The translations under genes and the position numbers were made by a program. Of a DNA stretch of 53,900 nucleotides, positions 38,154 through 42,083 are shown piece after piece (within the stretch, counting starts at the first letter, position 1; the number at the start of each line of letters is the position of its first letter). The DNA lies in contig JAGBAW010000028.1 of assembly GCA_017938725.1 (NCBI GenBank), positions 1-53,900 of the forward strand, in the 5' to 3' direction. Under the pieces are notes generated by a model. That model was not told where the DNA came from. It was given only the letters and a program-made list of their open reading frames with translations, and made no database searches. The stretch is from Bacilli bacterium (GTDB lineage: Bacteria; Bacillota_I; Bacilli_A; RF39; UBA660).

Positions 38154-39221
38154 ATGGCTAAAAAGAAAAATGAAATTACAATTCGTTCAAGTGCAGCAGA
38201 ATATTTAACTTATGTAGCAGCCATAGGAGATAATCTTGAATCAATAGAAGTTAGATATGAAGATGAAAATATTTGGCTTACTCAAAAAATGCTATCAACT
38301 TTATATGGAGTATCAATTTCAGCAATAAATCAACATATTAAGAAAATATATGATGATAATGAATTAGATGAGAATTCAACTATTAAGAATTTCTTAATAG
38401 TTCAAAAAGAGGGGAATAGAGATATTTCAAGAAATGTTGTACATTATAATCTTCAAATGATAATCGCAATTGGATTTAAAGTAGATAATGAAAGAGCTAT
38501 TCATTTTAGAAAATGGGCAAACCAGGTAGTCAAAGATTACACAATAAAGGGATGGGTAATGGATGATGAACGTTTAAAAAGTGGAGGTTCAATTCTAACT
38601 GAAAAATACTTTGAAGAACAATTAGAACGTATAAGAGAAATAAGAATGTCTGAAAGAAAATTTTATCAAAAAATTACTGATATTTATGCTACATCAATAG
38701 ATTATGATAAAACTGCAAAATCAACAATTAGCTTTTTTACTTCTATTCAAAATAAACTACATTATGCAGCATCTGGAAATACTGCAGCAGAAATAATATA
38801 TAATAGAGCAGATCATAAAAAGGAAAATATGGGATTAACTTCGTGGGAAGGATCACCCAATAGTAAAATACATAAATATGATGTCGGTATTGCAAAAAAT
38901 TATTTATCAGAAACTGAAATTGGACAATTAGAAAGAATGGTATCAGCATATTTAGATTTAGCCGAAATGCAAGCAATGAGACATATTCCAATGACAATGG
39001 CAGATTGGGAAGAAAGATTAAATGGATTTTTAAAATTATGGGATCATGAAGTTTTAAAGGATAATGGAAAAATAACAGCGGAAATGGCAAAAATTCATGC
39101 AGAAACTGAATTTGAAAAATATAGAATTATACAAGATCAAATTTATATATCAGATTTTGATGAACTTTTATTAAATGCAAAAAAGATAGGAAAAGAAAAT
39201 ACAAAAGGATATGAAGAATAG
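38154..39221 (+). CDS. RhuM family protein
   Basis: A 355-residue protein of the RhuM family, known from pathogenicity islands and many commensals, function unsettled. The N-terminal part has beta strands with SIEVRYEDENIWLTQKML and a winged-helix-like YGVSISAINQHIKKIY, followed by VVHYNLQMIIAIGFKV. A long helical C-terminal half has HYAASGNTAAEII, LSETEIGQLERMVSAYLDLAE and MTMADWEERL. AGGAAGTGA supports the start at 38154. It is often found near mobile or defence genes, but here the neighbours are housekeeping genes (queH, guaD). Confidence 0.88.
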   Translation: MAKKKNEITIRSSAAEYLTYVAAIGDNLESIEVRYEDENIWLTQKMLSTLYGVSISAINQHIKKIYDDNELDENSTIKNFLIVQKEGNRDISRNVVHYNLQMIIAIGFKVDNERAIHFRKWANQVVKDYTIKGWVMDDERLKSGGSILTEKYFEEQLERIREIRMSERKFYQKITDIYATSIDYDKTAKSTISFFTSIQNKLHYAASGNTAAEIIYNRADHKKENMGLTSWEGSPNSKIHKYDVGIAKNYLSETEIGQLERMVSAYLDLAEMQAMRHIPMTMADWEERLNGFLKLWDHEVLKDNGKITAEMAKIHAETEFEKYRIIQDQIYISDFDELLLNAKKIGKENTKGYEE

Positions 39222-39725: not shown

Positions 39726-39826
39726 AAATAAGTAGATTTTCTTTTTTTATAAATATTTAATCAAAAATTTTAATTTAAAGGGGGATTTTCATTTTTGTAG
39801 CGAATAATTATTATGAGGTGAAAAAA

Positions 39827-41569
39827 ATGAAAGGAAAATTAAAAGTAATAGTACTAGGAATATTAATGGGGTTACTAGTTGGTATAAGAGGTGTGCATGC
39901 ACTTGCAAATGATTCAAAATTAACAACACAATATATTGATAATGTTTATGCGTATCATTATAAAAACGGTGTATTGATGTCCTATGGGAAATTACCATTT
40001 AGATATCAAAATGGAAAGTTAGTATATTGTATAGAGCCGTGGCGAATTATCAACACTAATACTTATAATTCTAGTGATGATTGGAATATTTCTGGATATT
40101 CAGAAGAAGAAAAAAATCAAATGGAGTTAATCGCACACTATGGTTATGGATATGATGGACATGACTCAATAAAATATTATATGGCAACACAAGAATTAAT
40201 ATGGCTTTTTAAAGATGATTATATTAAATGGACTACTGAGTATACAAATAATGGATTAGGAGAGCAAATTAATATAGATAATGAAAAAAACGAAATACTT
40301 AGACTAGTAAATTTACATAATGTATTACCATCATTTTCTGGTAGTTGTCATACCACTTATTTAAAAGATAAGTTAGTATTAACAGATACCAATAATGTCT
40401 TAGATAATTTTGATATATCATCTGATTTAGAATACGTAAAAAGTGGGCAAACTTTAACATTTAATATTAATAAACTTGGATCATTTAATATAAAGTTAAC
40501 TCCTAAGAACTTAAATAATGATTTAACAAAGATTTATTACATAGATAGTCATAATAGTCAAAAAATGGCCTCATTTGGTTTAAGTAATAAGAAGAATGCA
40601 GAAATAAGTATAGTATCAAACAAAGTACATGTAAGGGTAAATAAAAGAGATAGTAAAACAAAGAATTTAATAAATGATGAAGGAACAATATTTAAAATTA
40701 AAGATGTAACTACCAATTCTTATATCATTGAAAACCTAAAGGTTAGTAAAGATGGATATGCATATATAGACTTAGAAAAAGGTAAATATGAAATAGAGGA
40801 AGTAAGTGCATCAAGTGGCTATGTAGTTAATAAAAATAAAAAAATAATAGAAATAAATGAAGATATAAATATTAATGATACATATTATGATGTAGATATA
40901 TTTAATGATGTACCAACGGGCAAAATAAATATATATAAAGTAGATGAGGATGGTACTAGCCTTGATGGTGTTGAAATAGGCTTATTTGATAAAAATCATA
41001 AGAAAATAAAAACGATTATTACAAATAGTGAAACAGGTAATTTTTTTGATAATCTAAGTTTGGGAACTTATTATATCAAAGAGTTAAACACTTTAAATGG
41101 ATATTTACTAGATGATAAGTATTATAAAGTGGAATTAAAATATAAAAATGATAAGACTTATATAGTCGAAAAAAACCTAAAACTTATAAATAATAAAATA
41201 AAATGTGATATAGTTTATATAACATCTTCAAATGAGGGAGGAAAACTTAAAAATGTAGAAATAAATGTATATGATTCAGATAATAAAATTGTATATAGTG
41301 GAAAAACTGATGAAAATGGTGAGGTTATAATTAAGGATTTACCATATGGGAAATATTATATTAAACAGGTTAAAGTGCCAAGTGGATATATATTAAATGA
41401 GGAAGAATATACATTCTATGTTAATGATAGCACATGCAATGGTGCAATAAATGTTACAAATGATAAGACTATTATGCCTGTGACTAGTATGGGCTTTAGT
41501 ATATATTCGGTTCTATATGTTTTATTTATGAGTCTAGGAATTTATAATTTTGTTAAGAAAAGTAATTAG
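39827..41569 (+). CDS. Thioester-domain surface adhesin with SpaA-type repeats
   Basis: A protein of 580 residues. Signal peptide to about 27 (cut near V-H-A-L-A). The N-terminal thioester domain has Cys68 in V-Y-C-I-E-P and Gln122 in MATQELIW, the pair that forms an internal Cys-Gln thioester able to bind host amines. A beta domain follows (about 175-268), then three prealbumin-like SpaA/Cna-B domains (about 270-360, 365-455, 456-545). The first two keep a Lys and a Glu (Y-x-I-E/K-E) for an isopeptide bond; the third has Y-I-K-Q and lacks them. The sorting signal is MPVTS at 550-554, then a membrane segment and K-K-S-N. GAGGTGA precedes ATG 39827. Confidence 0.88.
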   Translation: MKGKLKVIVLGILMGLLVGIRGVHALANDSKLTTQYIDNVYAYHYKNGVLMSYGKLPFRYQNGKLVYCIEPWRIINTNTYNSSDDWNISGYSEEEKNQMELIAHYGYGYDGHDSIKYYMATQELIWLFKDDYIKWTTEYTNNGLGEQINIDNEKNEILRLVNLHNVLPSFSGSCHTTYLKDKLVLTDTNNVLDNFDISSDLEYVKSGQTLTFNINKLGSFNIKLTPKNLNNDLTKIYYIDSHNSQKMASFGLSNKKNAEISIVSNKVHVRVNKRDSKTKNLINDEGTIFKIKDVTTNSYIIENLKVSKDGYAYIDLEKGKYEIEEVSASSGYVVNKNKKIIEINEDININDTYYDVDIFNDVPTGKINIYKVDEDGTSLDGVEIGLFDKNHKKIKTIITNSETGNFFDNLSLGTYYIKELNTLNGYLLDDKYYKVELKYKNDKTYIVEKNLKLINNKIKCDIVYITSSNEGGKLKNVEINVYDSDNKIVYSGKTDENGEVIIKDLPYGKYYIKQVKVPSGYILNEEEYTFYVNDSTCNGAINVTNDKTIMPVTSMGFSIYSVLYVLFMSLGIYNFVKKSN

Positions 41570-42083
41570 TATTTTATTAATGGTATCATCTATATGTATA
41601 TTATTTTGTGATATAACTAAAAGTAATGATTTTGAAAAAAATATTGATAATATTATTAATACAAAAAATATAGATAAGAAATATGATGGTTACATAAGTA
41701 TTCCAAGTTTAAGTTACAAAGGTCTAATAAAAACAGGAAATTATAAAGATGTGTTAGATGCTAATTTGGTTTTAATGATTAGTGATAAAAAAATAATATA
41801 TAATGAATATGGAAATATTATATTAGCGGGTCATAATAATAAATATGTTTTTTCAAAACTTTATAAATTAAAAGTTAAAGATGAAATAATTATTAGTGAT
41901 TTTGATAAAGAATACTCTTATACTATTCAAAAATTAGATTATATAAATATAAAAAATAAAACCATATTAGATAACGTATATGATGAAAAAATATTAACTC
42001 TAATAACATGTACATCTAATAATCAAATAAGGTATGTAGTAAGAGCCAAATTTAATCACATAATTTCGCACAATAATTTATAA
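41550..42083 (+). CDS. srt: Dedicated sortase
   Basis: A 177-residue cysteine transpeptidase that anchors surface proteins to the wall. Membrane segment at about 4-22. Catalytic His95 in LAGHNN, Cys154 in TLITCTSN, Arg161 in I-R-Y-V-V-R. YDGYISIPSL fits the start of the sortase barrel. TTG 41550 is preferred: it gives the full membrane segment and has TAGGA upstream, and it overlaps the adhesin gene by 20 bases. The class (A- or D-like) is uncertain. Its substrate is almost surely the adhesin just upstream. Confidence 0.9.
   Translation: MLRKVISILLMVSSICILFCDITKSNDFEKNIDNIINTKNIDKKYDGYISIPSLSYKGLIKTGNYKDVLDANLVLMISDKKIIYNEYGNIILAGHNNKYVFSKLYKLKVKDEIIISDFDKEYSYTIQKLDYINIKNKTILDNVYDEKILTLITCTSNNQIRYVVRAKFNHIISHNNL

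Follow-up and report, generated by a model that had tools for sequence, protein, structure and literature searches.

Introduction

The closest described relatives of the adhesin analysed here are the class II TIE proteins. In SaTIE of S. aureus (6FX6) and in BaTIE (6FWV), a thioester domain (TED) is followed by a CnaB/SpaA stalk and a wall anchor, and the thioester between Cys296 and Gln467 of SaTIE was proven crystallographically (PMC6194298). The Gln and Trp of the TQxxPhiW motif were shown in Cpa not to be essential for the thioester (PMC4450167; PMC6194298). The plasmid pLS20 encodes TIE-pLS20, in which a class II TED with its Cys in a YCI-type motif is followed by Cna domains; this adhesin is needed for conjugation of B. 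subtilis and was reported not to be sortase-anchored (PMC8092201). On the enzyme side, Clostridium perfringens sortase D (4D70) and the class D/C sortases have in common a fold with His, Cys and Arg. SrtA of Streptococcus pyogenes, a housekeeping enzyme, takes LPATS and LPATA, with Ser or Ala after Thr; with either peptide bound, the P4 and P3 carbonyls are contacted by its Arg, and the Arg to Ala mutant is inactive (PMC9520033).

Here we describe an adhesin gene and a sortase gene on the plus strand of the window, by which we mean the whole analysed stretch of 53,900 nucleotides of contig JAGBAW010000028.1 (Bacilli bacterium, assembly GCA_017938725.1). We consider it likely that this locus encodes a class II thioester adhesin that is displayed on the peptidoglycan by a dedicated sortase from an overlapping gene, together forming a self-contained surface-display module.

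Results

The Thioester-Domain Head of the Adhesin

The adhesin gene (39827..41569) encodes a protein of 580 aa with a signal peptide, a TED, three SpaA repeats and a wall-sorting signal. The ribosome-binding site GAGGTG and the ATG start span 39816..39829; an upstream GTG at 39818 was not taken as the start because it sits within the ribosome-binding site. The TED (PF08341, E 5e-7), the three SpaA copies (PF17802, E 5e-42) and the sortase domain of the downstream gene product (PF04203, E 7e-21) all scored above the Pfam cut-offs, which confirmed the domain content given in the initial annotation of this locus.

The TED covers approximately residues 31–265 (39917..40620). A profile of 55 relatives covered the whole SaTIE-TED 6FX6 (E 5e-37). 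The AF2 model of the domain had a mean pLDDT of 94.4, and its best full-domain match by Foldseek was 6fx6 (E 1e-13, TMt 0.71, identity 24%). In the profile alignment, Cys296 of SaTIE corresponded to Cys68 (40028..40030), the Cys of YCIE in a [YFL]C-Phi-zeta motif, and Gln467 corresponded to Gln245 (40559..40561), the Gln of SQKMA. The spacing between Cys68 and Gln245 is 177 residues, compared to 171 in SaTIE and 204 in EfmTIE86, and the residue count of SaTIE in the alignment was also 171, exactly 467-296. From the fold match of the model and the Cys-Gln spacing, the head is predicted to be a class II thioester domain with the inserted beta-sandwich fold.

Cys68 had been proposed earlier to form the thioester with Gln122 (40190..40192). 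In the first set of relatives, Cys68, Gln122 and Gln245 were each present in 39 of 39 sequences. In the wider alignment of 55 rows, Cys68 and Gln245 were invariant (Gln245 in 55/55), while Gln122 was only nearly invariant. Gln122 aligned with the TQ of SaTIE ‘ATQMLIWELL’ and belongs to ATQELIW (residues 120–126), which is the TQxxPhiW motif and lies in a helix of the AF2 model (residues 115–126). In the same model, Cys68 is located in a strand and Gln245 immediately before a strand. The pairing of Cys68 with Gln122 was rejected, as the SaTIE alignment places the thioester Gln at Gln245 and a Gln of the Gln122 type was found dispensable in the studies cited above. The predicted thioester pair is Cys68-Gln245.

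The Stalk and the Wall-Sorting Signal

In the alignment, SpaA/CnaB repeats 1 (40631..40870) and 2 (40919..41170) each possess the Lys-Glu-Asn isopeptide triad. This triad has been lost from repeat 3 (41204..41467), where Lys is missing and Gln stands in place of Glu, and a Cys pair is found instead. The two residues, Cys460 (41204-41206) and Cys537 (41435-41437), are near the first and the last strands of the repeat, and they are conserved in 8/8 members of the genus as well as in its sister clade. A disulfide may possibly have replaced the isopeptide bond in this repeat.

The wall-sorting signal (41474..41566) is composed of MPVTS, a hydrophobic segment and the tail VKKSN. It follows the general arrangement of PxT, hydrophobic segment and basic tail, with MPVTS in the place of the LPxTG pentapeptide itself. 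MP[VI]T[ST] was conserved in all 8 genomes of the window genus in which the signal was read, which speaks against chance. The earlier identification of MPVTS as the wall-sorting end was upheld. In the genome of the window, this pattern matched three places, and the only C-terminal tail among them was that of the adhesin. A terminator-like hairpin was also observed at 41476-41494, within the codons of the sorting signal (1 found, 0.1 expected).

The Sortase

The second gene (41550..42083) encodes a sortase of 177 aa with an N-terminal signal anchor. Besides the Pfam match, TIGR01076 was over its cut-off, and the catalytic residues of the sortase superfamily (peptidase C60) were present: His95 in AGHN (41832..41834), Cys154 in TLITC (42009..42011) and Arg161 (42030..42032). 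The AF2 model had a pLDDT of 90 and matched SrtA, SrtC and SrtD structures in Foldseek (E ~1e-11), and the best PDB match of the sortase family profile was C. perfringens sortase D (4D70, E 8e-25). The scores were far under the NCBIfam cut-offs of classes D, C, E, and F, with 51 bits against 165 for class D and 49 against 160 for class C.

These class scores bear on the question of whether the sortase is a pilus polymerase that joins the adhesin into fibers like the SpaA-type pilins. The SpaA repeats would suit such a function, as would the weak matches to the NCBIfam model of SpaH/EbpB major pilins and to class C sortases. However, the adhesin reached 25.9 bits against a pilin cut-off of 95, each sortase has one substrate, and no ancillary pilin is encoded alongside. 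Moreover, proteins with a thioester domain usually carry it N-terminally and are single, stalk-like and anchored to the wall (PMC4450167). Since the pilin and class C scores were far under the cut-offs, polymerization was rejected as the main reading, and we regard it as very unlikely; wall anchoring of a single adhesin is preferred.

The genome of the window, which is approximately 90% complete, was searched by family and by pattern. It contains three sortase genes, namely that of the window, a stand-alone gene (C33) and a class B-like gene on a mobile element. The two other sortases could act on the adhesin as well. The genome also encodes MraY, and lipid II is therefore expected. Two further proteins were seen. 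One is a secreted protein of 330 aa (L078, 7071-8063, G000:C23) with a near-eukaryotic ubiquitin sequence at its start and the sorting signal NPKTFDS at its end; its gene is divergent from the class B-like sortase gene, and the mobile element carries a serine recombinase and a relaxase-like gene. The other is a SpaA-containing protein of 1546 aa (L079, 850-5490, G000:C25, minus strand) with the tail SIQTGGS, possibly a substrate of another sortase.

The Overlap of the Two Genes

The adhesin and sortase genes share 20 bases (41550-41569), and an AGGA ribosome site (41536-41539) precedes the TTG start of the sortase, so that site, start and overlap lie together at 41536..41569. The reading frames, their coordinates, the overlap and the TTG start were confirmed from the sequence. 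TTG 41550 appears to be the better start because the use of Met 41580 would trim the signal anchor to about 10 hydrophobic residues. The overlap of 20 bases, with a TTG or ATG start at the equivalent place, is kept in most genus members, and an AGGA/AGGT-like spot similarly recurs in most of the genus. The shared bases code twice, in one frame for VKKSN, the basic end of the sorting signal, and in the other for LRK at the likewise basic N-terminus of the sortase.

A sortase gene in the same direction was found just downstream of 98 TED genes, almost all of them from uncultured gut Bacilli and mostly from MAGs. The two genes overlapped in 96 of the 98 pairs, by 4 to 73 bases, when the most upstream possible start was used, a choice that favors overlap. 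Thus, the overlap is not a matter of chance. It probably couples the translation of the adhesin substrate with that of the sortase.

Within the window, no Rfam match was found when a regulatory RNA was sought upstream of the adhesin, and promoter-like sites were no commoner than in shuffled sequences. A RhuM-family gene (PF13310, E 1e-108) is located at 38154-39221, upstream of a deaminase gene, and no link to the pair was seen.

The Sorting Signal Is Matched to the Type of Sortase

In 95 of the pairs the sorting motif could be read. At the position of the catalytic Arg, 31 of these sortases, including that of the window, had Arg, 63 had Gln and one had Tyr. The residue before PxT was M (16), Y (10), or L (5) in the Arg-type pairs, and V (59) or I (4) in the Gln-type pairs. 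In 94/94 pairs, the residue before PxT therefore agreed with the sortase type, [MYL]PxT with Arg and [VI]PxT with Gln. Gly after Thr was found in 0/31 Arg-type and 19/63 Gln-type signals. The initial annotation had called MPVTS unusual and had suggested a comparison of the motifs of homologous pairs; the signal is indeed unusual against LPxTG, but not within its lineage, where Gly after PxT is absent from all Arg-type pairs.

The Arg type forms one group on the sortase tree, so the match could reflect a single inherited split. Independent evidence came from the TED tree, on which the heads that partner Arg-type sortases did not form one clade (AU p 0.00023), and the label changed approximately five times, at least three of them on well-supported branches. 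The signal letter followed the sortase type in 5/5 of these swaps and in 3/3 on the well-supported branches. The clearest single case is L074, whose head is placed among the heads with VPNT and Gln-type sortases, although its signal is MPDTY and its sortase is of the Arg type. A sign test on the three independent swaps gave p 0.25, and since three independent pairs cannot reach significance, the swaps are consistent with joint exchange rather than proof of it. Judged from these comparisons, the sorting signal and the sortase type behave as one module.

Four contigs (L049, L103, L119, and L123) carry two tandem TED-sortase units, one of each sortase type, in which each TED has its own sortase, and in genomes G006 and G007 both types are present in separate places. 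The earlier proposal of a private anchor-and-enzyme pair is well supported by the type-signal match, these units, the joint swaps, and the fact that no other protein of the genome ends in an MP[VI]T[ST] sorting tail. Several alignment columns differed when the Arg-type sortases were searched for a residue that explains Tyr versus Met at the first motif position, and all of them followed lineage.

The first and fifth residues of MPVTS deviate from LPxTG, and the signal might therefore be regarded as a decayed LPxTG, with the adhesin left unsorted and the pair degenerating. This is extremely improbable, because the motif has been kept across the 8 genus genomes with both frames open in all of them, the sortase retains its His, Cys, and Arg, and the distances of TED and sortase correlate among the Arg-type pairs (r 0.79).

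The Gln-Type Sister Sortases

In the sister type (L047, L055, L064, L066, L110, L128, and 57 others), Gln occupied the position of the catalytic Arg in 63/63 sortases, while the catalytic His was invariant in both types and the Cys was invariant in the Arg type and present in 62/63 of the Gln type. The Gln-type sortases also have a new invariant Lys (63/63), which is absent from the Arg type. As the Arg of S. pyogenes SrtA contacts P4 and P3 and is needed for activity, a link between Arg or Gln and the P4 letter is mechanistically plausible, and the Gln type stands out as truly odd. Nothing relevant on Arg-less sortases was found in the open-access literature. We tentatively propose, with slightly more doubt than confidence, that the signals with their dedicated sortases are interchangeable anchor modules of two orthogonal specificities, and that the Gln type is an active Arg-less sortase in which this residue helps to choose between [MYL]PxT and [VI]PxT.

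Distribution of the Family and Possible Targets

Of the 60 genomes searched, 33 (own genome included) had a TED homologue, namely 8/8 of the window genus, 24/29 of the other family members, and 1/23 of those outside the family but within the class. When species genomes were scanned, 340 relatives were obtained. The best 80 of these were mainly from MAGs, many of them titled rabbit (‘Lapin’), roe deer, sheep, goat, water buffalo, or rumen, and included Candidatus Pelethosoma merdigallinarum, which is filed by NCBI under Mycoplasmatota. These relatives probably belong to the GTDB order RF39. A few TED genes had no adjacent sortase. In the cultured Anaerofustis stercorihominis, a related TED gene with VPNTG (L111) lies at the edge of one contig and the first part of a Gln-type-like sortase at the edge of another (G060:C17:5-142), and this species is a possible culturable member of the group. 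Sortase genes of the srtA/B kind are mentioned for RF39 and related orders in the accessible text of one paper, without substrates (PMC10868615). The open-access literature gave nothing relevant on sortases of Mollicutes or on thioester domains in gut metagenomes.

A host-associated life had been suggested from the presence of the thioester adhesin. The gut origin of the relatives supports this suggestion, but the thioester domain itself does not, since in B. subtilis an adhesin with a TED has a role in conjugation (PMC8092201). The adhesin might accordingly act in contact between bacteria, such as conjugation or aggregation, or on dietary fiber rather than on a host. The example of pLS20 favors such a function, and the target of a TED is not readable from its sequence. 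However, no conjugation genes were present among the neighboring genes examined at the locus, and the gut samples fit host targets, although they are also compatible with bacterial or food targets. We consider a non-host target somewhat unlikely, yet a serious alternative to a host target.

Discussion

By homology with the characterized systems, thioester formation, cleavage, anchoring, and target binding can be proposed for the surface-display module as follows. The adhesin would be exported, and its head would fold as a class II thioester domain and form the Cys68-Gln245 thioester by itself. The stalk formed by the SpaA repeats would be stiff, and two of these repeats have the isopeptide triad. 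The membrane-held C-terminus would be cleaved after Thr (MPVT|S) by the sortase made from the same mRNA in the overlapping frame, and the cut adhesin would be transferred to lipid II, the peptidoglycan precursor, so that a stalk fixed to the wall would bear the reactive head. The thioester could then react with an amine or hydroxyl on the target to form a covalent bond; mucus or a host glycoprotein, a food particle, and another bacterium are candidate targets. The sortase would be private, fitting its own substrate through [MYL]PxT with no need for Gly and differing in this from the sister [VI]PxT pairs.

About 100 natural substrate-sortase pairs, nearly all of them with overlapping genes, are now available, and their specificity is readable from sequence. 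They could yield orthogonal sortases for protein ligation that require no Gly after Thr, and the Gln type allows the need for the ‘catalytic’ arginine, and its purpose, to be tested directly. Furthermore, the pairs suggest how genome-reduced, mostly uncultured gut Bacilli might grip their surroundings by covalent adhesion.

Compared with SaTIE and BaTIE, the adhesin of the window is alike in its head from end to end, by profile and by fold, with the same Cys and Gln, the TQxxPhiW motif and the same order of head, stalk and wall anchor. It differs from them in its own overlapping sortase gene, in the absence of LPxTG, in the low sequence identity, and in the Cys pair of the third stalk repeat where the isopeptide triad would be. 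It resembles TIE-pLS20 in the class II TED with its YCI-type motif, but unlike that protein it has an adjacent sortase and no conjugation operon alongside. The sortase shares the fold and the His-Cys-Arg residues with sortase D of C. perfringens and the class D/C enzymes, whereas it is a short protein that is encoded in an overlapping pair, is paired with [MYL]PxT without Gly, and scores far under the class cut-offs. Finally, MPVTS is chemically plausible as a substrate since S. pyogenes SrtA accepts Ser or Ala after Thr; in contrast to that housekeeping enzyme, the sortase of the window is probably dedicated to the product of the adjacent gene.
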